Part shown: positions 49,233 through 60,169 of the stretch, one piece after another
How the letters are laid out: every line of letters starts with the position of its first letter
Position numbering within the stretch: position 1 is the stretch's first letter
NCBI GenBank assembly: GCA_019635285.1
Contig: JAHBZS010000007.1
Location: forward strand, 87,954 to 151,953
Reading direction: 5' to 3'
From: Rubrivivax sp.
Lineage (GTDB): Bacteria > Pseudomonadota > Gammaproteobacteria > Burkholderiales > Burkholderiaceae_C
DNA: 64,000 nucleotides
Made by a program: the position numbers and the translations under genes
Notes under the pieces: generated by a model
What the model was told of the DNA's origin: nothing
Databases searched by the model: none
Seen by the model: only the letters and a program-made list of their open reading frames with translations

Positions 49233-50414
49233 ATGAGCACTGCCTCCCCGATGCTCACCGCCCCAGCCGGCGAACGCGAACTTCTGGCGGTGCGCATGCA
49301 GCCGCTGGCCGCCGGCGACGCAGCTCGCCTGAACCAGCAGTCGGGTGTCGCCCGGCGGGCCGGCCTGCTGTGGTGCACCCGGCATCGCGCCGCCGAAAAA
49401 TCCGATACGGTGTTCGTGTTCGTGCACCCTTCGTCGAACTTCATGGCGCACTATGCGCTGGCAACGATGTCGCAGCTGGGGGTCGACGCCGTGGGCATGT
49501 CCACACGGTACATCAACAACGAGTCGACGCTGCTGCTCGAGGACTGCGTGGTCGACATCGGCTCGGTGCTGCTGACTCTGCGCGAGGAGGGCTACCGGCG
49601 CATCGTGCTCGTCGGCAACTCCGGCGGCGGCGGGCTGGTGGCGCTGTACCAGAACCAGGCCGAGCATCCTTCGATCCGGTCCGCGCCCTGCGGCGCCGGC
49701 CCTGATCTCACCCAGGCGCGCCTGCCGGCCGCCGATGCGCTGGTCATGCTGATGGCGCATCCCGGCCGCAACACGGTGCTGACCGAGAAGCTCGACCCCT
49801 CGCTGCTGGACGAGTTCGACCCGTTCCGGCGCGATGCGTCGCTGGACATGTTCGACCCGCGCAACGGGCCGCCCTACACGCCGGAGTTTTTGCAGCGCTA
49901 CCGCGCCGCGCAGATCGCGCGCAACGAACGCATCACCGACTGGGCCCTGGAGCGGCTGGCGTTTCTGCGCCAGCACACCGGCGAGCGCGTGCATGACCTG
50001 CCGTTCGTGGTGCACGGCACGATGGCCGACCCGCGCAACCTGGACCTGAGCCTGGAGCCTTCGGATCGCAAGGCATCCACGCAATGGGGCGAGCCCTATG
50101 TGGCCAACCTGATCCCGGCGTCGATCGGCCACTACACCAGCCTGCGCTCCTGGCTGTCGCAGTGGAGCATGCGCTGCTCCCACGGCAACGGGCCGAAGCG
50201 GCTGGAGTCCGTCTCGGTGCCGGTGCACGTCATCTACGGCACGGCCGACCCGGGCTGCTACCCCAGCTATGCGCAGTCGCTGTACGACGGCGTCAGGCAC
50301 GATCGCCGCCGCATCACCGGCATTGCGCGCGCCGGCCACTACCTCGATGGCCAGCCGGAGGAGAAGCTGATCGCCTGCCGCACGATGGTGGACTGGGCCC
50401 GCTCCTTGCCTTGA
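49233..50414 (+). CDS. Alpha/beta hydrolase
   Basis: Hydrolase of 393 residues with a nucleophile elbow GNSGGGG near residue 130, an early FVHPSSNF oxyanion segment and a late VIYGTADPGCY acidic loop with GHYLDG for the catalytic His. It begins 34 bases after the dioxygenase-like gene. In that position it could hydrolyse a ring-cleavage product or an ester or CoA intermediate. Substrate unknown. Confidence 0.85.
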   Translation: MSTASPMLTAPAGERELLAVRMQPLAAGDAARLNQQSGVARRAGLLWCTRHRAAEKSDTVFVFVHPSSNFMAHYALATMSQLGVDAVGMSTRYINNESTLLLEDCVVDIGSVLLTLREEGYRRIVLVGNSGGGGLVALYQNQAEHPSIRSAPCGAGPDLTQARLPAADALVMLMAHPGRNTVLTEKLDPSLLDEFDPFRRDASLDMFDPRNGPPYTPEFLQRYRAAQIARNERITDWALERLAFLRQHTGERVHDLPFVVHGTMADPRNLDLSLEPSDRKASTQWGEPYVANLIPASIGHYTSLRSWLSQWSMRCSHGNGPKRLESVSVPVHVIYGTADPGCYPSYAQSLYDGVRHDRRRITGIARAGHYLDGQPEEKLIACRTMVDWARSLP

Positions 50415-50496
50415 ACGCATCGCGGCGCCGCAGCCTTCGGCCGGCGCCATCGTCAACCCTCATTCGCCTCTCTCACCTCAACCCGGAGACTTGACC

Positions 50497-51501
50497 GTGA
50501 AAGCCCTCGTACTCAGACAACATGGTGGCCTCGAGCAACTCGAGGTCGTCGCCGACCATCCGCGCCCCGCGGTGACCGAAGGGCACGTCGTGATCCGGGT
50601 CCGCGCCTCGTCCTTCAACTACCACGACGTGTTCACCGTGCGTGGCATGCCGGGCATCAAGGTGCCGCTGCCGGTGGTCATCGGCCTGGACATGGCCGGC
50701 GAGATCGTCGAGGTCGGCGCGAATGTCACCGGCTGGCAGGCCGGCGACCGCGTGTTGGTGAATCCGCTGAACAAGAAGAAGGGCCTGATGGGCGAGATGA
50801 TGGACGGCGGCATGGCGGAGTACTGCCTGGTCTCGGCCGAACAGCTGATCCGCATGCCCGACGGCGTGAGCTTCGAGGAGGCGGCTGCGCTGCCGGTGGC
50901 CTACGGCACCGCGCACCGCATGCTCATCACCCACAACACCATCAAGAAGGGCGACCGCGTGCTGGTGCTGGGCGCCAGCGGCGGCGTGGGCACCGGCTGC
51001 GTGATCCTGGCCAAGATGCTCGGTGCCGAGGTGATCGCCTGCGCCGGCAGCGCGGAGAAGCTCGAGCGCCTGAAGGCGCTGGGCGCCGACCACGTGCTGG
51101 ACTACAAGACGACGGACTTCTCCAAGTGGGCCGTCGAAAAATACGGCAAGCCGCAGCGCCGCACCTACGAAGGGGGCGTCGACGTGGTCATCAACTTCAC
51201 CGGCGGCGACACCTGGGTGCCTTCGCTGCGCTGTCTGAAGCGCGGCGGCTCGCTGCTGGTGTGCGGCGCGACCGCCGGCCACGATCCGAAGGAAGATCTG
51301 CGCTACATCTGGAGCTTCGAGCTGAAGGTCATCGGCTCGAACAGCTTCTACGACGACGACCTGGCCGCGTTGATGGGCATGATCGCGAACGGCCGCATCA
51401 AGCCGGTCATCGACAAGGTGCTGCCGCTGGAGCAGGCGGCCGAAGGGCTGCGCCTGATCCAGGACCGCGAGGTCATGGGCAAGGTCATCGTCACGCCCTG
51501 A
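50497..51501 (+). CDS. Zinc-type/quinone oxidoreductase family (MDR) dehydrogenase
   Basis: Medium-chain dehydrogenase/reductase of 334 residues. The N-terminus MKALVLRQHGG, the domain segment GLDMAGEIVEVG and a Rossmann motif VLGASGGVGTGC are typical. NAD(P)H-dependent oxidation or reduction of a carbonyl or enoyl group is expected. I chose the GTG at 50497 because GGAG ends 9 bases before it (50484-50487); a TTG two codons earlier would be only 3 bases from that site. It is part of the plus arm of the catabolic island. Confidence 0.88.
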   Translation: MKALVLRQHGGLEQLEVVADHPRPAVTEGHVVIRVRASSFNYHDVFTVRGMPGIKVPLPVVIGLDMAGEIVEVGANVTGWQAGDRVLVNPLNKKKGLMGEMMDGGMAEYCLVSAEQLIRMPDGVSFEEAAALPVAYGTAHRMLITHNTIKKGDRVLVLGASGGVGTGCVILAKMLGAEVIACAGSAEKLERLKALGADHVLDYKTTDFSKWAVEKYGKPQRRTYEGGVDVVINFTGGDTWVPSLRCLKRGGSLLVCGATAGHDPKEDLRYIWSFELKVIGSNSFYDDDLAALMGMIANGRIKPVIDKVLPLEQAAEGLRLIQDREVMGKVIVTP

Positions 51502-51534
51502 GCCAGCCTCTGCAACAAGACACACGGAGCATCC

Positions 51535-51957
51535 ATGGAAAGCCTACCTTCCGTCGACAGCGTTCAAGCCCTGCTGACGCGCGGCCCGTTTCACCAATGG
51601 CTCGGGCTGCAGGTGCTGCGCGTCGGCGACGGCGAGATCGACATCAAGGCCACGTGGCGGCCGGAATGGGTGGTCAACCCGGACGCCGGCTACACGCACG
51701 GCGGCATCCTCGCGGCCTTGATCGACCTGTGTGCGGACTGGGCCCTGGTGTCCACCACCGGACGCGGCGTGCCGACCATCGACATGCGCGTGGACTACCA
51801 CCGCGCGGCGATGAAGGGCGACATCGTCTGCAAGGGCAAGGTGGTCAAGGGCGGCAAGCAGTTCTCGGTCTGCGAGGCGTCGCTGTTCAACGAGCAGGGC
51901 CAGCTGCTGGCCAGCGGCCGGGGCGTCTACGCCATGCCCGCGCCGAAGAGCGCCTGA
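51535..51957 (+). CDS. PaaI-type hotdog thioesterase
   Basis: Hotdog-fold acyl-CoA thioesterase of 140 residues. The PaaI signature GYTHGGILAALIDLCADWAL is present, with the helix carrying the family's acidic residue, followed by DMRVDYHRAA and CEASLFNEQGQLLASGRG. It should hydrolyse an aryl- or acyl-CoA, releasing CoA from dead-end or product thioesters. It lies 33 bases after the MDR gene with CGGAG upstream, and the VOC gene follows by 6 bases. Confidence 0.9.
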   Translation: MESLPSVDSVQALLTRGPFHQWLGLQVLRVGDGEIDIKATWRPEWVVNPDAGYTHGGILAALIDLCADWALVSTTGRGVPTIDMRVDYHRAAMKGDIVCKGKVVKGGKQFSVCEASLFNEQGQLLASGRGVYAMPAPKSA

Positions 51958-51963
51958 GCGGCC

Positions 51964-52836
51964 ATGGCGGTGCGCGTCGACCATGCGGTGATCAACGTCC
52001 TGACCGGGATGGATGCCGCGGTCGAGCGCTTCCGCGCGCTGGGCTTCGCGCCGACGCCGCGCGGCTACCACTCGCTGGGTTCGATCAATCACCTGATGAT
52101 GTTCGAGCGCGACTACCTTGAACTCGTCGGCATCGAGCCGGGTGCGACGAAGGTCCGCGAGGAGGTGGCATCCGCGCCGATCGGCCTCAACGGCCTGGTC
52201 TTTGCAACCGACGACGCGCGGGCGCTGCATCGCCGACTGCGCGCGCAGGGCGTGCCGGTGCTCGACCCGGTGGACTTCTCGCGACCGGTCATGGTCGACG
52301 GCGTCGAGCGTGAGGCCGCGTTCACCACGGTGCGCGTGCACCCCGACTACGTGCCCGGCGGCCGCGTGTACTACTGCGAGCACAAGACGCCCGAGCTGGT
52401 GTGGCGCCCCGAATGGCTGGCGCAGCGCAACGGCAGCGACGGGCTCGCCGAGTTCGTCGTCGTGGCGCAGGATCTGCCCACGCAGGCCGAGCGCTACGCC
52501 CGCTTGCTCGACGGCGCCGTCTTCGTGCCGGCGGCCGGGGAGGGCGAGGTGTTCGCGGCGTGGGACGGCTTCCGCCTCAGCCTGATGAGCCGCGAGCGGT
52601 ATGACGCGCGCTACGGGACAGCCGGCTGCGCGCGTGCCGCGCGCGACGGGGACTGCATGGGCGCGCTGGCGCTGCGCACGCACTCCCTGGCGGCGGCCCG
52701 TGCGTGCCTGGCCGACGATCTTCGCGCCGGCCGCGCCGTCGATCACGGCGATCGCCTCACCGTCGCGGCCGCCGGACTGTGGGACTGCGTCCTGGAGTTC
52801 GTCGGCCCCCGCCCGGGCGCCAGCGACCGCGCCTGA
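51964..52836 (+). CDS. VOC-family (glyoxalase-like) protein
   Basis: Vicinal-oxygen-chelate protein of 290 residues with a clear N-terminal Glyoxalase_3-like half: VDHAVINVLTGMDAAVERF, SINHLMMFERDYLELVGIEPG and VYYCEHKTPELVW. The second half (FVVVAQDLPTQAERYARLLDG) is a diverged repeat. The family covers metal-dependent dioxygenases, isomerases and lyases. Its place between the thioesterase and acyl-CoA synthetase points to a catabolic step; the reaction is unknown. Confidence 0.85.
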   Translation: MAVRVDHAVINVLTGMDAAVERFRALGFAPTPRGYHSLGSINHLMMFERDYLELVGIEPGATKVREEVASAPIGLNGLVFATDDARALHRRLRAQGVPVLDPVDFSRPVMVDGVEREAAFTTVRVHPDYVPGGRVYYCEHKTPELVWRPEWLAQRNGSDGLAEFVVVAQDLPTQAERYARLLDGAVFVPAAGEGEVFAAWDGFRLSLMSRERYDARYGTAGCARAARDGDCMGALALRTHSLAAARACLADDLRAGRAVDHGDRLTVAAAGLWDCVLEFVGPRPGASDRA

Positions 52837-52857
52837 TCCTTGCCGTCAAAGCACGCG

Positions 52858-54381
52858 ATGAAGACCCTGAGCAATCTCGGCGACCTGATCGACCCGGCCG
52901 CGACGGCAGACCGGCTGGCCTTGATCGACCTGGGCGGCGAAAGCGGTCCGCGGCAGCTGAGCTACGCCGAGTTTGCCGCGTCCATCCGCGCGGCGGCGCG
53001 GGCCCTGAGCCGCCAAGGGCTGCAGCGCGGCGAGCGCATTGCCATCCTGTCGGCCAACCGCAGCGAATACCTGGTGGCCTACCTGGGCGCGATGCAGGCG
53101 GGCTTCGTGCCGGTGCCGGTGAACCATCGTTTCCCGCGCGAACTCAGCGACTTCGTGATCCACGACGCAGGCGCGCGCTTGCTCTTCTGCGACGCCGAAC
53201 GCCTGGCGGCCCGCCCGCCCGGGATGCCGACGGTGGTCTTCGGCACGGCGCCGCAGGAGTTGCCGGCGGGCGCCACGCCCTTTGCCGACTTTCTCGACCC
53301 CGGGCCCTTCGAGCCGGTGCTGCCGGCGCCCGACGAGCCGGCGATGTTCCTCTATACCTCGGGTTCGACCGGGCGACCCAAGGGCGTGGTGCTGTCGCAC
53401 CAGAGCCACCTGTGGGTCGTCGAGGCGCGGCGCCGCGCGCAGGACGTGTCCGGCCACCGCTTCCTGATCGCGGCCCCGCTGTATCACATGAACGCGCTCG
53501 GCCTGAGCAAGCTGGCCATCGCCTCGGGCGCCACCATCGTGCTGATGCCGCAGTTCAGCAGCCTGGGCTACATCGACGCGATCGCGCGCTACCGCTGCAC
53601 CTCGCTGACGGCCGTGCCGCCGATGGTGGCGATGATGCTGCGCGAGCGCGAGGCGCTGGCCCGCACCGACCTGTCCTCGGTGGCGTTTCTGCGCATGGGC
53701 TCGGCGCCGGTCAGCCCGAGCCTGCTCGAGGAGATTCACAAGGCGCTGCCGCAGGCGGTGGTGCTCAACGCCTACGGCTCCACCGAGGCCGGCCCGGTGA
53801 TCTTCGGCCGCCATCCGCAGGGGCTGCCGCAGCCGCCGCTGTCGGTCGGCTACCCCCATCCCGAGGTGCGCCTGCGGCTGGTGGACGGCGACGACCTGGA
53901 CGCCCGGCAGGGCGTGCTGCAGTTGCGCTCGCCCGGGGTGATGCTGGGCTACCACAACCGGCCGGAGATCCGCATGCCCTTCACCGACGACGGCTACTTC
54001 GTCAGCGGCGACGTGTTCCGGCGCGACGACGACGGCTTCCACTACTTCGTCGGCCGCACCGACGACATGTTCGTCTGCGGCGGCGAGAACATCTACCCCG
54101 GCGAAGTCGAGAAGCTGCTGGAAAGCCATCCCGACATCGCGCAGGCCTGCGTGGTGCCGATCGAGGACGACATCAAGGGCGCCAAGCCGGTGGCCTTCTG
54201 CGTGCTGCGCGAAGGGCGTGCGTCGAGCGCCGAGGACATCAAGCGCTACACGCTGGCGCACGCGCCGGCCTACCGCCATCCGCGCTTCGTCTGGTTCGAG
54301 GAGCGGCTGCCGCTGGCCGCCACCAACAAGATCGACCGCAAGCTGTTGCAGGACATGGCACGGCAGCGCACGCAGCTATGA
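52858..54381 (+). CDS. Acyl-CoA synthetase (AMP-forming, ANL family)
   Basis: ANL adenylating enzyme of 507 residues. The phosphate loop is LYTSGSTGRPKG, the A5 motif NAYGSTEAGP, the hinge region FVGRTDDMFVCGGENIYPGE, and the C-terminal catalytic Lys lies in NKIDRKLL. It activates a carboxylic acid, probably the aromatic substrate or a cleavage product, to its CoA ester. I chose the ATG at 52858; a TTG six codons earlier is possible. The stop overlaps the regulator start (ATGA). Confidence 0.9.
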   Translation: MKTLSNLGDLIDPAATADRLALIDLGGESGPRQLSYAEFAASIRAAARALSRQGLQRGERIAILSANRSEYLVAYLGAMQAGFVPVPVNHRFPRELSDFVIHDAGARLLFCDAERLAARPPGMPTVVFGTAPQELPAGATPFADFLDPGPFEPVLPAPDEPAMFLYTSGSTGRPKGVVLSHQSHLWVVEARRRAQDVSGHRFLIAAPLYHMNALGLSKLAIASGATIVLMPQFSSLGYIDAIARYRCTSLTAVPPMVAMMLREREALARTDLSSVAFLRMGSAPVSPSLLEEIHKALPQAVVLNAYGSTEAGPVIFGRHPQGLPQPPLSVGYPHPEVRLRLVDGDDLDARQGVLQLRSPGVMLGYHNRPEIRMPFTDDGYFVSGDVFRRDDDGFHYFVGRTDDMFVCGGENIYPGEVEKLLESHPDIAQACVVPIEDDIKGAKPVAFCVLREGRASSAEDIKRYTLAHAPAYRHPRFVWFEERLPLAATNKIDRKLLQDMARQRTQL

Positions 54382-54932
54382 TCGCGCCGCCGTTCGGCAG
54401 CGACAGGATCGCCACCTTGGATGACATCGATCGCCGGATTCTCGAACTGCTCCAGCAGGACGCCAGCCTGCCGGTGAGCGAGATCGCCGCGCGGGTGGGG
54501 CTGTCGACCACGCCGTGCTGGAAGCGCATCCACAAGCTCAAGGAAGACGGCGTCATCGCCGGGCAGGTCGTGCTCTGCGACCCGGACAAGCTCGAACTGG
54601 GCACGACGGTCTTCGTCGAGGTCTCGACCAACCAGCACAACGAAACCTGGCTGGCCAGCTTCGCCAAGGCCGTGCAGTCCATTCCGGAGATCGTCGAGGT
54701 CTATCGCATGAGCGGTGACGTCGACTACCTGCTGCGCGTCGTCGTCAGGGACATCAAGGGCTACGACGCGGTCTACAAGCGTCTGATCAAGGCCTGCGAG
54801 CTCCATGACGTGAGTTCCAGCTTCGCGATGGAGCGCATCAAGTACTCCACGGCGCTGCCCATGCGCCTGTCGCCGGCCGAGCCCGAAGCTGCGCCTGCGC
54901 CGGCACGCCGGCGCACCGGCGCCGCGCGCTGA
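54378..54932 (+). CDS. Lrp/AsnC-family transcriptional regulator
   Basis: Regulator of 184 residues. The N-terminal helix-turn-helix is DDIDRRILELLQQDASLPVS followed by RVGLSTTPCWKRIHKL; the C-terminal RAM ligand domain has VEVYRMSGDVDYLLRVV. A basic/Pro-Ala tail extends the protein beyond the usual length (about 150-165). The start overlaps the acyl-CoA synthetase stop (54378-54381), so it is the last gene of the plus arm and the obvious local candidate to control the island. Its inducer is unknown. Confidence 0.93.
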   Translation: MIAPPFGSDRIATLDDIDRRILELLQQDASLPVSEIAARVGLSTTPCWKRIHKLKEDGVIAGQVVLCDPDKLELGTTVFVEVSTNQHNETWLASFAKAVQSIPEIVEVYRMSGDVDYLLRVVVRDIKGYDAVYKRLIKACELHDVSSSFAMERIKYSTALPMRLSPAEPEAAPAPARRRTGAAR

Positions 54933-55016
54933 TTTCCCGATCCACTTTTTCAGCGGTTGCACAACGGCCCCAGGCCCGGTGCCTGGAGCTGCTGCATTCC
55001 AATGACTGACGAAGGA

Positions 55017-55050
55017 TTGCAACATTTTTTCTTTGAATCTGTACAATGTA
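55017..55050 (+). promoter_or_regulatory. Candidate promoter and palindrome upstream of the desulfurase fusion
   Basis: TTGCAA (55017-55022) and TACAAT (55042-55047), 19 bases apart, form a plausible sigma-70 promoter in an A+T-rich gap. The -10 overlaps the palindrome TACA-A-TGTA (55042-55050), which resembles TACATTTGTA in the divergent 47.9-kb region. A TTGAATCTG direct repeat lies at 55033-55041 and 55071-55079. Confidence 0.45.
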
Positions 55051-55107
55051 GATCAAGGTACTATCTTTTGTTGAATCTGAGGTACGCAAAACCTGCTTGA
55101 CGCGGCC

Positions 55108-57273
55108 ATGGAAATCTATCTCGACGCCAACGCCACCACGCCCGTGCTCGCCGAGGCGCGCACGGCCGCGCTGGCGGCGATGGCCGAGGACTACGGCAAC
55201 CCCAGCAGCGTGCACGGCACCGGCCTGAAGGCGCGCGCGCTGATGGACGCGGTCCGCGCGCAGGCCCGGCGTGCGATCGGCGCGGCCGACGGCCAGGTGC
55301 TCTTCGTCAGCGGCGCCACCGAAGGCATCCAGACGGCGGTGCTGTCGGCGATGACGGCGCTGCGCGAGCGCAGCGCAAGTGGCGCCGGCGCGGCGGCCAC
55401 CGTGCTCTACGGCGCCACCGAACACAAAGCCGTGCCCGAGGCGATCCGGCACTGGAACCACCTGCTGCGCCTGGGCCAGCAGGTCCTGGAGATTCCGGTG
55501 GACCACCGTGGCCGGCACGACCTGGACTGGCTGCGCGCCCATGCGCCCGGCGCAGGGCTGGTGTGCACGATGGCCGTCAACAACGAGACCGGGGTCATCA
55601 GCGACCTGCCAGGCATCGCGCAGGCGCTGCGCGGCAGCCGGGCCTTCTGGATGGTCGATGGCGTGCAGGCGCTGGGCAAGCTCGACCTGCGGCTGCACGA
55701 ACTGGCCGTCGACTATGCGACCTTCTCGGGCCACAAGCTCTATGCCCCCAAGGGCATCGGCCTGCTCTATGTCCGGCAGGGCGCGCCGGTCACGCCCCTG
55801 CTGGCGGGCGGCGGCCAGGAGGATGCGTTGCGTTCCGGCACCGAGAACATGCCCGGCATCGCCGCATTGGGCGCGGTGCTGTCGGCATTGGCCTCGGGGC
55901 AGGTGTTCCAGCCCGCGCACACCCTGGTGCACTACCGCGAACGCTTGGCGCAGGCGCTGCGTGATGCCTTCCCGGACATCGTCTTCAATGCGCCGACCGA
56001 CGTGAGCGTGCCGACGACGCTGAACTTCTCGGTGCCGGGGCTGAGTTCCCGGCTCCTGCTCGATCTGTTCGACGCCGCCGAGATCCGCGTGAGCGGCGGC
56101 TCGGCCTGCAGCGCCGCCAAGGCGCAGCCCAGCCACGTGCTCGAGGCGATGGGTCTGCCGGCATGGCAGGCCGCTGCCGCGGTGCGGCTGTCCTTCGGGC
56201 CGGCCACGCCGGCCGAAGTGATCGAAGCCGCCTGCGAGCGCATCCGGGCTTGCGGCGAATCGGTCCGCGCCAACTGCCTGGGCGCGTCGCCGGCGGGTGA
56301 TGGACCCGTGCCGCGCCTGACGCGCTTCGTTGCCGACGCGGCCTGCAGCTACGTCGTCGCCGACCCGGCAGGGGGCCGCTGCGTCGTGGTCGACCCGCGG
56401 CCGGAGTTGAACGAGTCGCTGATGCAGTGGATCCGCTGTCGCGGGCTCGAACTGGCCGCCGTGCTGGCCACGCACGCCCGCAGCGAGGTCGCTTCCGCCG
56501 CGGCGGCGCTGCGCGCGGCGCTGGCGCCGGCGTGGTCGGCGACCGAAGCCCTTGGCTGGCCAGTGGGCGTCGAAAGCATCGCTCTGGGAGACCAGTGCCT
56601 GACCCGGCTGCCCGGCCTGCCGCGCGATGCCGCGGCCTATGTGCTGCGCGACGAGCGGCAGCGCTGCTGGGCATTCGTCGGTGACATGGCGCCCGCGGCG
56701 ACGTCGGACCGAGGCGCGCGGGCAGAGCGCGACGCGGCAGCCGCAGCGCTGCAAGCGCTGCACGCGTCCGTCGGTGGCGGCGGCGCGTTGCTGCTGCCGG
56801 CCGATGACCCGGACGAGCGATTCGCCAGCACGCTCGCCGACGGGTTCGGCCCTGCGCTTGCGCAGCCGCCGGCTGCGGCCGATGCGGGCGAGGCCGTCGA
56901 TCCGGTGGCACTGTCGCCGTCCGCCGTGGCGGCCCTGCTCGAGACGCGCTCCGACCTGGTGCTCGTCGACGTGCGGGAGCCCTACGAACAGCGCCTGGGG
57001 CAGACCCTGGAGATCGGTGGCGGCGCCCGGCGCTGGGCCATTCCGTTGTCCGGCCTCGTCGAAGCGCTGCCCGATCTGCTGGCCTTGCCGGCACAGACCC
57101 CGGTGCTCGTCTTCTGCCGCAGCGGCAATCGCAGCGCCCGCGCCGCGGCGGCGTTGCGGCGCCTGGGCCGCCTGCGGGCCTACAGCGTGAGCGGTGGCTT
57201 GGCGCTGTGGCCCGCCGCTGCCTCTGCAGTGCAGCGCCCCTCACAGGCGGCGCTGCCCACCCCGGCGGCATGA
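55108..57273 (+). CDS. Cysteine desulfurase / degenerate MBL-fold / rhodanese fusion protein
   Basis: Protein of 721 residues with three parts. Residues 1-385 are an NifS/IscS-like cysteine desulfurase: His106, Asp184 and Gln187 around PLP, Lys210 (FSGHK) as the Schiff-base Lys, and Cys334 in GSACSA as the persulfide Cys. Residues about 400-590 resemble the persulfide-dioxygenase metallo-beta-lactamase fold (CSYVVADPAGGRCVVVDPRP), but HxHxDH is replaced by HARSEV (456-461), so metal binding is probably lost. Residues about 600-705 are a rhodanese domain with DVREPYE and Cys670 in CRSGNRS. It probably passes sulfane sulfur from cysteine to an acceptor. It stands between the catabolic regulator and a transporter protein. 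Confidence 0.9.
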   Translation: MEIYLDANATTPVLAEARTAALAAMAEDYGNPSSVHGTGLKARALMDAVRAQARRAIGAADGQVLFVSGATEGIQTAVLSAMTALRERSASGAGAAATVLYGATEHKAVPEAIRHWNHLLRLGQQVLEIPVDHRGRHDLDWLRAHAPGAGLVCTMAVNNETGVISDLPGIAQALRGSRAFWMVDGVQALGKLDLRLHELAVDYATFSGHKLYAPKGIGLLYVRQGAPVTPLLAGGGQEDALRSGTENMPGIAALGAVLSALASGQVFQPAHTLVHYRERLAQALRDAFPDIVFNAPTDVSVPTTLNFSVPGLSSRLLLDLFDAAEIRVSGGSACSAAKAQPSHVLEAMGLPAWQAAAAVRLSFGPATPAEVIEAACERIRACGESVRANCLGASPAGDGPVPRLTRFVADAACSYVVADPAGGRCVVVDPRPELNESLMQWIRCRGLELAAVLATHARSEVASAAAALRAALAPAWSATEALGWPVGVESIALGDQCLTRLPGLPRDAAAYVLRDERQRCWAFVGDMAPAATSDRGARAERDAAAAALQALHASVGGGGALLLPADDPDERFASTLADGFGPALAQPPAAADAGEAVDPVALSPSAVAALLETRSDLVLVDVREPYEQRLGQTLEIGGGARRWAIPLSGLVEALPDLLALPAQTPVLVFCRSGNRSARAAAALRRLGRLRAYSVSGGLALWPAAASAVQRPSQAALPTPAA

Positions 57274-57337
57274 ACGCACGCGCTTCGGGTGAATGCCTTG
57301 CCGCGATCCATCGGTATCGGGGTATGGGGTACTACTG

Positions 57338-57367
57338 TTGAACGCACTCCGTGGTTGAGCATACTAT
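57338..57367 (+). promoter_or_regulatory. Candidate promoter of the solute-binding-protein operon
   Basis: TTGAAC (57338-57343) and TACTAT (57362-57367) with an 18-base spacer lie about 140 bases upstream of the Bug-type protein start, in the 232-base gap after the desulfurase fusion. Confidence 0.45.
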
Positions 57368-57505
57368 TTGCTAGCCGATCATGAGGAAGAATCCTTCTTC
57401 TGGCATGGCGCGGCTGCTGCCGCACGAAGCAGCTTCCCCGCGATGCCCGTGTTGTCTACCGACCCGATAGGCCGACCCTGCCTTCCGACTCACCCTGGAG
57501 CGACC

Positions 57506-58483
57506 ATGCGACGATTTGCCCCTCTTCTTTGCGCCTCCCTGGCCCTGCTGTGCGCGTCTGCGTCGATGGCGGCGGAGCCGTCCTGGGCCCCCGGCAAGGT
57601 CATTCGCATCATCAGTCCGTTCCCGCCCGGCGGAACCTCCGACACCATCGCCCGCGCGATGGCCAACTACCTGTCCGGCGCGCTGGGCCAGTCCGTGGTC
57701 GTCGAGAACAAGCCGGGCGGCTCGACGGTGATCGCCGTCAATGAACTGCGCCGCTCGCCGCCCGATGGCACGACGCTGATGTACACGACCACCGGCACGA
57801 CCAGCCAGCTGCCGCACCTTTATGCCAAGCCGCCCTTCGATCCGTTCAAGGACTTCACGCCGCTCGGTCTGGTGGCGTACAACAAGGTGGTGCTGCTGGC
57901 CAACGCCAACGCACCGTACGACAGCGTGGCCGGTCTGGTGGAGTACGCCAAGAAGAACCCCGGCAAGGTGAACTACGCAAGCTTCGGTGCCGGCTCGCTC
58001 CCGCACATCGTCAGCGAGGCGCTGAGCAAGCAGGCGGGCATCAGCATGACGCACATTCCGTACAAGGGTGGTGCGGACGCGGCCCGCGCCGTCATGGCGG
58101 GTGAAGCCGACATCCTGTTCGACGCCTCGGTGTCCGCCATCGCCAACGCGGCCGGCGGCCGGGTCAAGCTGCTCGCGGTGGTCGGCCCGAGCCGCATCGC
58201 GTCGGTGCCGAACCTGCCGACCATGGCCGAAGCCGGGTTCCCGGGCTTTTCCGAGCCCGGGCTGGAGCAGTTGCTGGCACCGGCCGGGCTGCCGCCGGAG
58301 CTCGCCGACAAGATGAACGCGGCGCTGATGCAGGCGGCCAAGGCGCCCGAGGTGCGCAGCATCCTCGACCGCGGCGGCTTCGACCCCGTCTACAGCAGCC
58401 CGCAGGAGCATCAGCGCATCATGAAGAAGAGCTACGACTACTGGGGCGGGGTCATCGCCCGTAGCGGCGTTCGGCTCGAGTAG
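57506..58483 (+). CDS. Tripartite tricarboxylate transporter (Bug-type) substrate-binding protein
   Basis: Periplasmic solute-binding protein of 325 residues with a signal peptide (LLCASLALLCASASMAAEP). TctC/Bug-family landmarks are IRIISPFPPGGTSDTIARAM, VVENKPGGST, VNYASFGAGSLPHI and HIPYKGGADAARAVMAGE. Such proteins bind carboxylates, often aromatic acids, and are strongly expanded in Burkholderiales. No TctA/TctB membrane genes are adjacent, as is common for orphan Bug proteins. I chose the ATG at 57506, preceded by TGGAG. Confidence 0.93.
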   Translation: MRRFAPLLCASLALLCASASMAAEPSWAPGKVIRIISPFPPGGTSDTIARAMANYLSGALGQSVVVENKPGGSTVIAVNELRRSPPDGTTLMYTTTGTTSQLPHLYAKPPFDPFKDFTPLGLVAYNKVVLLANANAPYDSVAGLVEYAKKNPGKVNYASFGAGSLPHIVSEALSKQAGISMTHIPYKGGADAARAVMAGEADILFDASVSAIANAAGGRVKLLAVVGPSRIASVPNLPTMAEAGFPGFSEPGLEQLLAPAGLPPELADKMNAALMQAAKAPEVRSILDRGGFDPVYSSPQEHQRIMKKSYDYWGGVIARSGVRLE

Positions 58484-58492
58484 GGTCCGCCA

Positions 58493-60169
58493 GTGGCCAC
58501 GCTGACCGGCGGCCAGGCGCTGGCCCGGCAACTGGCGCTCGAAGGGCTGACGGACCTGTTCGTCGTGCCCGGCGTGCAGCTTGACTGGGCCGTCGACGGC
58601 ATCCGCCAGATGGGCGATGCCTTCCGTCTGCGCATCCCCCGGCACGAACAGTCCACCAGCTACATGGCCGACGGCTATGCGCGCGCGGGCGGCCGCATCG
58701 GCGTGTGCATGACGGTGCCCGGCCCCGGCTTCACCAACGCGATGGCCGGCCTGGCGACGGCCTATGCCTGCTCGTCGCCGCTGCTGTCGATCACCGGCCA
58801 GATCCACTCGACGACCATCGGCGCCGGCTACGGCATGCTGCACGAGATCAAGGACCAGTCCTCGCTGGTCGGCAGCGTCACCAAATGGCAGGGCATCGCG
58901 GCCCGCCCCGAGCAGGTGCCGGCGCTGGTGCGGCAGGCCGTGCAGCAGCTGCGCAGCGGCCGCCCGCAGCCGGTGGGCATCGAGATTGCGCACGACGTGC
59001 TCAGCGGCAGCGCCGACATCCAACTGATCGAGCCGCCGGCCGCCTTCGACGGCCGCCTGCCCGCGGACCCGGCGCAGGTCGAGGCGGCCGCGGCGCTGTT
59101 GTCGTCGGCGCGTTTCCCGGTCATCCACGCTGGCGGCGGCGTGCTGGCTGCCGGCGCCAGCGAGGCGCTGGCGCGGCTGGCCGAGCGGCTGCAGGCGCCG
59201 GTCATCATGACCGAGACCAGCCGCGGCGCCATCTCCGACCATCATGCGCTGGCGCTGGATGCGGTGGCCGGCCGGGCCGTCATCCGCCGGGCCGACGTGC
59301 TGCTGGTGGTCGGCAGCCGCTTCATGAGCCGCATGGCGCCGCTGCCGCAGTGGACGTCGCCGTCGACGCAGTTCATCTACCTGAACGTCGAGGCCGAGGC
59401 CGCTGCGCCACCGCGCAAGCCGGGCCTGCTGGTGCAGGCCGATGCGGTACTGGGTTTGAAGGCGCTGGAAGCAGCCGTCGCCGCACGCCACGCATCGCGC
59501 GCCCCGCTGGTGCAGGCGGCGCGGCAGTGGGCGCTGCAGCAGTTCGCCGAGGTGCAGCCGCAGCTGGCCTACGTGCAGGCGCTGCGCGGCGCCATCCCCG
59601 AGGATGGCGTGCTGGTCAACGAGCTGACGCAGGTGGGCTATCTGGCGACGCTCGCCTACCCGGTGTACCGGCCGCAGACGCTGATCACGCCGGGCTACCA
59701 GGGCACGCTCGGTTTCGGCTTCCCCACGGCGCTGGGCGTGGCCACGGCCTTGCCGGACCGGGCGGTGGTGTGCATCACCGGTGACGGCGGCTTCGGCTGG
59801 GGGCTGGCGGAGCTGGCCACGGCCCGCCGCTACGCGCTGAACCTGGTGGTCGTGGTCTTCAACGACGGCCACTTCGGCAACGTGCGGCTGCTGCAGCAGC
59901 AGACCTTCGGCCACACCCTCGGCGTCGAGCTGTGCAACCCGGATTTCGTCAAGCTGGCCGATGCCTTCGGCGTGCCGTCGGAGCGCGTCGATTCGCCGGC
60001 CGGGCTGCAGGCTGCGCTGCGCGGCGCGCTGGCACGGCGCGGGCCGGCGCTGATCGAAGTCACGGTCGGCCCGATGCCCAGCGCGTGGCACCTGATCGGC
60101 TACCACAGCGCGTTCAAGCGGCCTTCGCCCGAGCCGGCCGATCCGATCGGCGGCATGCTCCCCGCCTGA
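58493..60169 (+). CDS. Thiamine-diphosphate-dependent enzyme (acetolactate synthase/benzoylformate decarboxylase-like)
   Basis: ThDP enzyme of 558 residues. The cofactor-activating Glu is Glu52 (RHEQSTSYMADGYAR). The ThDP/metal motif starts at Gly430-Asp431-Gly432 and ends at NDGHFGN. The family decarboxylates 2-oxo acids, oxalyl-CoA and similar compounds. The start is a GTG 9 bases after the binding-protein stop, implying one transcript. With a carboxylate-binding protein as partner it could act on the imported acid or a 2-oxo product; true acetolactate synthase is less likely because no small subunit is nearby. Confidence 0.9.
   Translation: MATLTGGQALARQLALEGLTDLFVVPGVQLDWAVDGIRQMGDAFRLRIPRHEQSTSYMADGYARAGGRIGVCMTVPGPGFTNAMAGLATAYACSSPLLSITGQIHSTTIGAGYGMLHEIKDQSSLVGSVTKWQGIAARPEQVPALVRQAVQQLRSGRPQPVGIEIAHDVLSGSADIQLIEPPAAFDGRLPADPAQVEAAAALLSSARFPVIHAGGGVLAAGASEALARLAERLQAPVIMTETSRGAISDHHALALDAVAGRAVIRRADVLLVVGSRFMSRMAPLPQWTSPSTQFIYLNVEAEAAAPPRKPGLLVQADAVLGLKALEAAVAARHASRAPLVQAARQWALQQFAEVQPQLAYVQALRGAIPEDGVLVNELTQVGYLATLAYPVYRPQTLITPGYQGTLGFGFPTALGVATALPDRAVVCITGDGGFGWGLAELATARRYALNLVVVVFNDGHFGNVRLLQQQTFGHTLGVELCNPDFVKLADAFGVPSERVDSPAGLQAALRGALARRGPALIEVTVGPMPSAWHLIGYHSAFKRPSPEPADPIGGMLPA

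Follow-up and report, generated by a model that had tools for sequence, protein, structure and literature searches.

Cysteine desulfurases are usually regarded as enzymes that supply sulfur to biosynthetic pathways. Two kinds of described fusion come closest to the gene considered here. In the CD-Rhd protein of Pseudorhodoferax sp. Leaf274 (WP_056898193.1; 54 kDa), a cysteine desulfurase (CD) with Cys334 is followed by a rhodanese (Rhd), and, according to the excerpted text of PMC8931425, assays support an internal persulfide relay from cysteine to Cys334, to the rhodanese cysteine and on to an acceptor; upon the Cys->Ser replacement in the rhodanese, the desulfurase becomes approximately tenfold less efficient with GSH, and oxidation of the roGFP2 acceptor is slower. 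The CyReB sensor was built from this protein (excerpt of PMC12319549). In the excerpts on CD-Rhd, neither a dioxygenase domain nor the surrounding genes are mentioned. In the second kind, BpPRF of Burkholderia/Paraburkholderia phytofirmans (5ve3), a persulfide dioxygenase (PDO) precedes the rhodanese, and there is no desulfurase domain. The ETHE1-type PDOs (4chl, 4ysb, 8zbd) are stand-alone; two histidines and one aspartate are described as ligands, and replacement of the putative iron ligands of the A. caldus enzyme with alanine inactivates it, H57A retaining 6% (excerpt of PMC6060420). On the regulatory side, the enterobacterial cyuPA system pairs a DecR-family regulator with a cysteine-degrading enzyme: in E. 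coli, DecR/CyuR responds to cysteine by activating cyuPA and cysteine breakdown, and CyuA is an oxygen-sensitive desulfidase, unlike the PLP-dependent desulfurase fusion described below (excerpts of PMC9040844 and PMC11408624; for CyuA, PMC9040844). Literature searches, covering open-licence papers, found no description of a CD-PDO-Rhd triple fusion. Both halves, CD-Rhd and PDO-Rhd, are thus already known, and the protein encoded in the window (the whole stretch of 64,000 nucleotides that was analysed) is a degenerate member of a CD-PDO-Rhd family.

The gene is an intact plus-strand ORF encoding 721 amino acids (Table 1). Long minus-strand ORFs overlap it; since the homologues and the Pfam domains belong to the plus frame, we read these as shadow ORFs of G+C-rich DNA. 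The N-terminal domain is a class-I (NifS/IscS-type) cysteine desulfurase with the Aminotran_5 fold, the PLP lysine and the catalytic cysteine in an SSGSAC-type loop; in the PDB, its sequence is best matched by 1ecx (E 1.4e-58), with numerous entries named as cysteine desulfurases among the other matches. The last domain has the fold and the active-site cysteine loop of a single-domain rhodanese (sulfurtransferase), and Lys210, Cys334 and Cys670 are conserved in all aligned rows (81/81, the window and 80 relatives). With a desulfurase followed by a rhodanese and both cysteines present, the protein belongs to the CD-Rhd fusion family, but the Pseudorhodoferax protein, likened here by its description and not by its own sequence, has no middle domain. 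With BpPRF the window protein shares the order of PDO and rhodanese, its own copy having lost PDO ligands. Thus, the single chain of three domains proposed in an earlier note is borne out, with the named residues where that note had placed them.

Table 1. Features of the fusion gene and its upstream region (positions are those of the window; CD, cysteine desulfurase; PDO, persulfide dioxygenase; Rhd, rhodanese).
Feature	Positions	Strand	Basis
AsnC/Lrp-family regulator, DecR/CyuR-like, 184 aa, directly upstream of the fusion	54378..54932	+	comparison with E. coli DecR
Intergenic region, possible promoter/operator; includes a short A+T-rich block that L001 shares in part	54933..55107	+	window/L001 comparison
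CD-(decayed PDO)-Rhd fusion, entire gene	55108..57273	+	intact ORF; homologues with identical domain order
Cysteine desulfurase domain, residues 3-373, with Lys210 and Cys334	55114..56226	+	Aminotran_5, E 1.1e-55
Decayed PDO-type MBL domain, residues ~404-594	56317..56889	+	AF2, Foldseek/VIA, intact-homologue profile
HARSEV (residues 456-461), remnant of HxHxDH, first His alone kept	56473..56490	+	motif alignment
Leu504, replaces the PGH histidine	56617..56619	+	motif alignment, intact-homologue profile
Asp526, retained aspartate ligand position	56683..56685	+	motif alignment
Asp566, replaces the PGHD histidine	56803..56805	+	motif alignment
Rhodanese domain, residues 604-702, Cys670 within CRSGNR	56917..57213	+	PF00581, E 4.3e-8

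In the Pfam search of the window protein, no family claimed the residues between Aminotran_5 and Rhodanese. The earlier note had taken this region for a metallo-beta-lactamase (MBL) fold, and the structure prediction agrees: the AF2 model is confident (pLDDT 85.5), and its top Foldseek/VIA matches are PDOs, including ETHE1. A profile built from 22 intact homologues matches 4ysb (7e-33), 8zbd (2e-29), human ETHE1 4chl (1e-24) and BpPRF 5ve3 (3e-24). Among NCBIfam models, glyoxalase II (GloB) ranks first for the intact middle domains, above the Blh sulfur dioxygenase model, with 57-70 bits against a cut-off of 201; hence it is the profile matches in the PDB and the structure matches that support the assignment to PDOs. 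We take the iron ligands of ETHE1 to be the first histidine, the PGH histidine and the GD aspartate. Intact members of the family carry these motifs (e.g. DTHSHGDH, PGHT, GDT and PGHDY in L003) and, with the profile match, are assigned to the ETHE1-type PDOs in this part. At the same sites the window protein has ATHARSEV, PGLP, GDM and PADDP. It thus retains the fold, nearest to PDOs, but not the full set of 2-His-1-Asp iron ligands, since the PGH histidine is replaced and little of HxHxDH is left, and because of HARSEV, Leu504 and Asp566 we do not class it as a PDO. Only two of the seven ligand positions, His456 and Asp526, are kept, in agreement with the loss of metal ligands that had been claimed. 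Its nearest relative, L001 (81%), has ATHPHADL, PGLA, GDA and PAHD: both proteins lack the histidine of PGH as well as the one that ends HxHxDH, and the window protein has lost more.

To place this copy within the family, we considered the best 80 of 357 relatives from a scan of genome contigs, together with the window (81 rows). The dioxygenase motifs are intact in 46, partly kept in six and degenerate in 18, and the domain is missing in the remaining 11. The intact state was assigned by a regular-expression rule, which counts as intact two HxHxDR rows (L060, L062) and one weakened copy (L014); strict HxHxDH is present in 44/46 intact rows and the later HD motif in all 46. In the partly kept rows, five from Alishewanella and one from Rheinheimera (L067), HxH, PGH and GD are present and DH is lost. 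These rows (L066-L070, L079) also keep the later histidine, and here the iron site may outlast the loss of second-shell residues. The expectation that ligands are always lost in the three-domain architecture is therefore not supported, as 46/81 members retain the ligand motifs. The opposite expectation, that homologues keep the ligands and only this copy is damaged, holds in its first part and fails in its second, since other copies are damaged as well.

A wider search recovered the same range of forms. Among 399 genomes of the family to which the L003 genome belongs, a set that overlaps the 80 loci and so is not an independent survey, the fusion family occurs in 61 (E <= 1e-100); of the rows from these genomes, 26 have alignments that extend at least to query position 735, whereas 11 end at 468-583 and 25 at 382-399. 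All but two of the latter lie in frames of 492-589 codons, the size expected for CD-Rhd. The full fusion is found in 2/37 genomes of the window's own genus, and in an order-level sample (n = 200) the A2 profile (E <= 1e-25) falls in a frame of more than 600 codons solely in the window's genome. We also observed an 851-codon frame (G520:C3:20399-22861), where the desulfurase and the remainder match as two separate pieces.

The history of the losses was followed on a tree of the desulfurase part, which comprised 67 of the 81 rows (after removal of 13 near-duplicates and of the apparently frameshifted L053) and was rooted at the midpoint, without an outgroup. The window and L001 lie within a clade that has support of 98/91 and holds 36 rows, of which 32 are intact, and the two-domain members nest inside the same tree as the three-domain ones. 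The degenerate state requires four changes on this tree. In topology tests on the tree rows, with groups picked after the tree had been seen, a single origin was rejected both for all degenerate rows (p 8e-8) and for all rows without the domain (p 1e-5); a joint loss of the ligands in the window lineage and the Paucibacter-type lineage has p 0.038, giving modest support for separate origins. Thus, ligands or the whole domain have been lost more than once. Since the ligand motifs persist in 46/81 members, an active dioxygenase was most likely present in the ancestral protein; the polarity rests on the match between the ligands of intact members and those of free PDOs, which makes losses the economical reading. 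For the two-domain Rhodoferax-type clade (L071-L074 and kin), situated outside the main intact clade, it is less certain whether the domain was lost or originally absent.

For each of the three domains we estimated dN/dS by the Nei-Gojobori method, with 95% intervals from a codon bootstrap. Between the window and L001, it is 0.13 (0.08-0.19) for the desulfurase, 0.44 (0.30-0.62) for the middle domain and 0.12 (0.05-0.24) for the rhodanese, the middle value being approximately 3.4-3.7 times that of the neighbouring domains. Among the 15 pairs compared, the middle domain has 0.08-0.21 in seven intact pairs and 0.15-0.37 in five pairs of Paucibacter-type degenerate members (L035, L040, L042-L045, L047, L048, L052; L044/L045 is a very close pair). 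In the pair L011/L014, which includes the weakened copy, it is 0.38, with the rhodanese raised too (0.32), and the L066/L070 pair is saturated. Hence, selection on the middle domain of the window lineage is relaxed, not neutral, and some constraint remains. Decay inside one genome was also seen: the genome with the intact fused copy L039 has a second copy (L113:202-2553, minus strand) from which the HxHxDH region is deleted.

These data bear on two readings in which the domain still does something. It could be a metal enzyme with altered ligands, as His456 and Asp526 are kept, Glu460 or Asp566 could coordinate, and solved MBLs with a HARLDQ motif exist, to judge by their entry titles; but with two of seven ligand positions left, a leucine at the PGH histidine, the relaxed selection and the inactivity of the A. 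caldus alanine mutants, H57A at 6% included (excerpt of PMC6060420), we consider this the least probable of the readings discussed. It is also unlikely, if somewhat more probable, that the domain has kept a function other than catalysis after losing its ligands, binding glutathione persulfide or docking the rhodanese and so gating the transfer, as the earlier note proposed with its scaffold or gate. The confidently predicted fold and a dN/dS clearly below 1 would fit such a scaffold or gate, as would the shortened domain retained by the Paucibacter-type degenerate members at dN/dS 0.15-0.37; constraint against misfolding alone would yield the same signal, however, the domain evolves several times faster in dN/dS than its neighbours in the window pair, and it is wholly missing in 11/81 members, while the two-domain CD-Rhd is highly active (excerpt of PMC8931425).

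The genome of the window contains a second gene relevant to persulfide oxidation. On another contig, an intact PDO-rhodanese (PRF-type) fusion is encoded (L109:3081-4154, minus strand, 357 aa) with the motifs ETHVHADH, TPGHT, SGD and YPGHDY and the Pfam domains Lactamase_B and Rhodanese. As a query (residues ~15 to 350), this protein spans the PDO and rhodanese parts of the fused proteins in one alignment at 29-36% identity, which suggests that the fusion arose by the joining of a desulfurase to a PRF-type gene. We searched the 79 genomes behind the loci with the same protein, free type-I PDOs having E <= 1e-57 and all other listed matches E >= 1e-34. A free type-I PDO was found in 15/18 genomes with degenerate copies (the exceptions are G283, G291 and G295), 6/11 genomes without the domain, 0/6 with partly kept copies and 2/44 with intact ones; the raw counts for degenerate vs intact genomes differ at p 1e-9. 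One genome counted as degenerate, G262, has one intact and one degenerate fused copy. G274, one of the two intact genomes with a free PDO, carries a further fused copy in which a deletion runs through HxHxDH. However, 18 intact genomes contain a type II PDO-like gene, and if PDOs of either type are counted, the contrast narrows to 15/18 degenerate vs 20/44 intact (p 0.01). Of the type II assignments, made in 20 genomes, one (L110, G236) was verified by matches to PaPDO 9g8t and P. putida 4ysk, L111 was called from ORF reading, and the remainder from the hit pattern. Tree-independent pairs numbered three only and gave no significance. Compensation of a degenerate fused copy by a separate PDO is thus a lead.

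The regulator directly upstream of the fusion is 50% identical to E. coli DecR vs 38% to Lrp (in some of the regulator comparisons its start was taken as 54387, so that the first three residues were missing). Five genes of the window's genome exceed the Pfam cut-off for the AsnC family, and the fusion-adjacent one alone clearly prefers DecR, with 168 bits vs 100 for Lrp; among the remaining four, Lrp is preferred in two cases and DecR, by no more than 5 bits, in two. DecR likeness in this analysis was judged against just three paralogues from E. coli, and by this measure 50/50 regulator rows (including the duplicate loci L081 and L082) match DecR above Lrp or AsnC. A DecR-like gene is present in 48/81 loci, and in 46 of them, the window included, it lies upstream within 300 bp: divergently and directly upstream in 42, and in tandem in four (the window, L001, L028 and L051). 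In the other two, L004 and L034, it is located at another place in the locus. By state of the dioxygenase, it accompanies 34/46 intact, 4/18 degenerate and 0/6 partly kept members and 10/11 of those without the domain. In the DNA of the other 33 loci no DecR-like regulator was found; a few of these (e.g. L037, L046) are cut close to the gene, and they include all Rheinheimera/Alishewanella and all Paucibacter-type degenerate members. As the two-domain members have the same regulator neighbour, cysteine is suggested as the cue for both forms.

In the window, the ATG of the regulator overlaps the stop codon of the preceding AMP-binding ligase gene (ATGA, 54378-54381), which hints at translational coupling in this lineage. 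The regulator may then be a part of the ligase operon instead of serving the fusion; because of this overlap, its link to the fusion looks looser than in the divergent pairs, and our confidence is slightly lowered. A scan of the intergenic region with the sigma-70 consensus found no promoter, and in 22 aligned of the 42 divergent intergenic regions, no 5-base dyad was common to more than two.

The neighbours within 49233-60169 encode an alpha/beta hydrolase-like protein (weak match), a zinc-type dehydrogenase, a glyoxalase-like protein, an AMP-binding ligase, a TctC receptor and a TPP enzyme, and five neighbour gene clusters are in the same order at L001. No isc or suf genes occur among the neighbours checked, in line with the location outside an isc/suf locus noted before. 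In 15 loci we observed a cluster of FAD-dependent oxidoreductases (DAO family), convergent with the fusion gene in L003 (L003:8280-9359, minus strand); the enzyme could act on the alanine product, or this could be chance synteny of close species. A TrhO-like gene (UPF0176_N and rhodanese) is present in 11 loci, e.g. L035:8086-8925 (plus strand); in L050 and in the Paucibacter-type L040 and L047, it closely follows the fusion gene in the same orientation.

Given the NifS/IscS-like desulfurase domain, the fusion might supply sulfur to Fe-S clusters, Moco or tRNA thiolation and simply be encoded away from the isc/suf loci, and the TrhO-like gene adjoining the Paucibacter-type L035, L040 and L047 would suit this. 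However, the domain falls well short of the equivalog cut-offs for NifS (281 vs 531 bits) and IscS (204 vs 643 bits), another NifS/IscS-like desulfurase is encoded in the genome (at C25), the commonest neighbour found is the DecR-like regulator, and the oxidising domain of intact members would not suit sulfur delivery; we therefore find a donor role very unlikely.

We rather favour the reading of the window gene as a decayed CD-PDO-Rhd member with a desulfurase-rhodanese relay, a dead dioxygenase, a role in cysteine breakdown and a separate PDO, which we hold to be reasonably probable as a whole. By homology with CD-Rhd, for which the relay has been measured (excerpt of PMC8931425), the internal sulfur relay proposed earlier is plausible: the desulfurase would take sulfur from L-cysteine onto Cys334 with release of alanine, the persulfide would move to Cys670, which would hand it on to glutathione or another small thiol, or else to a protein. 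The middle domain would formerly have oxidised glutathione persulfide to sulfite; having lost one of its iron ligands and nearly all second-shell residues, it may now be a folded spacer at most. The persulfide may instead be oxidised by the separate PDO-rhodanese fusion of the same genome. The adjacent DecR/CyuR-like regulator probably controls the fusion gene, and because of this probable control, breakdown or detoxification of excess cysteine is the likely role, not Fe-S assembly.

In the intact members, the fused PDO would itself oxidise the persulfide of GSH to sulfite, and the rhodanese may be able to form thiosulfate. It is possible, and we propose it tentatively, that the intact family is a cysteine-induced pathway in a single polypeptide, turning L-cysteine and O2 into alanine and sulfite or thiosulfate without release of H2S, that the two-domain CD-Rhd proteins are its repeatedly stripped descendants, and that the window protein stands in between, its dead dioxygenase being kept as a pseudoenzyme. 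The recurrence of the desulfurase-PDO fusion beside a regulator of the cysteine-sensor type suggests a catabolic branch of the desulfurases, in which cysteine sulfur is oxidised within one protein. It also offers a possible path by which CD-Rhd, the highly active enzyme on which a cysteine biosensor is now based, could have evolved. The natural series of intact, partly decayed, dead and missing domains allows the contribution of the fused dioxygenase to be tested.
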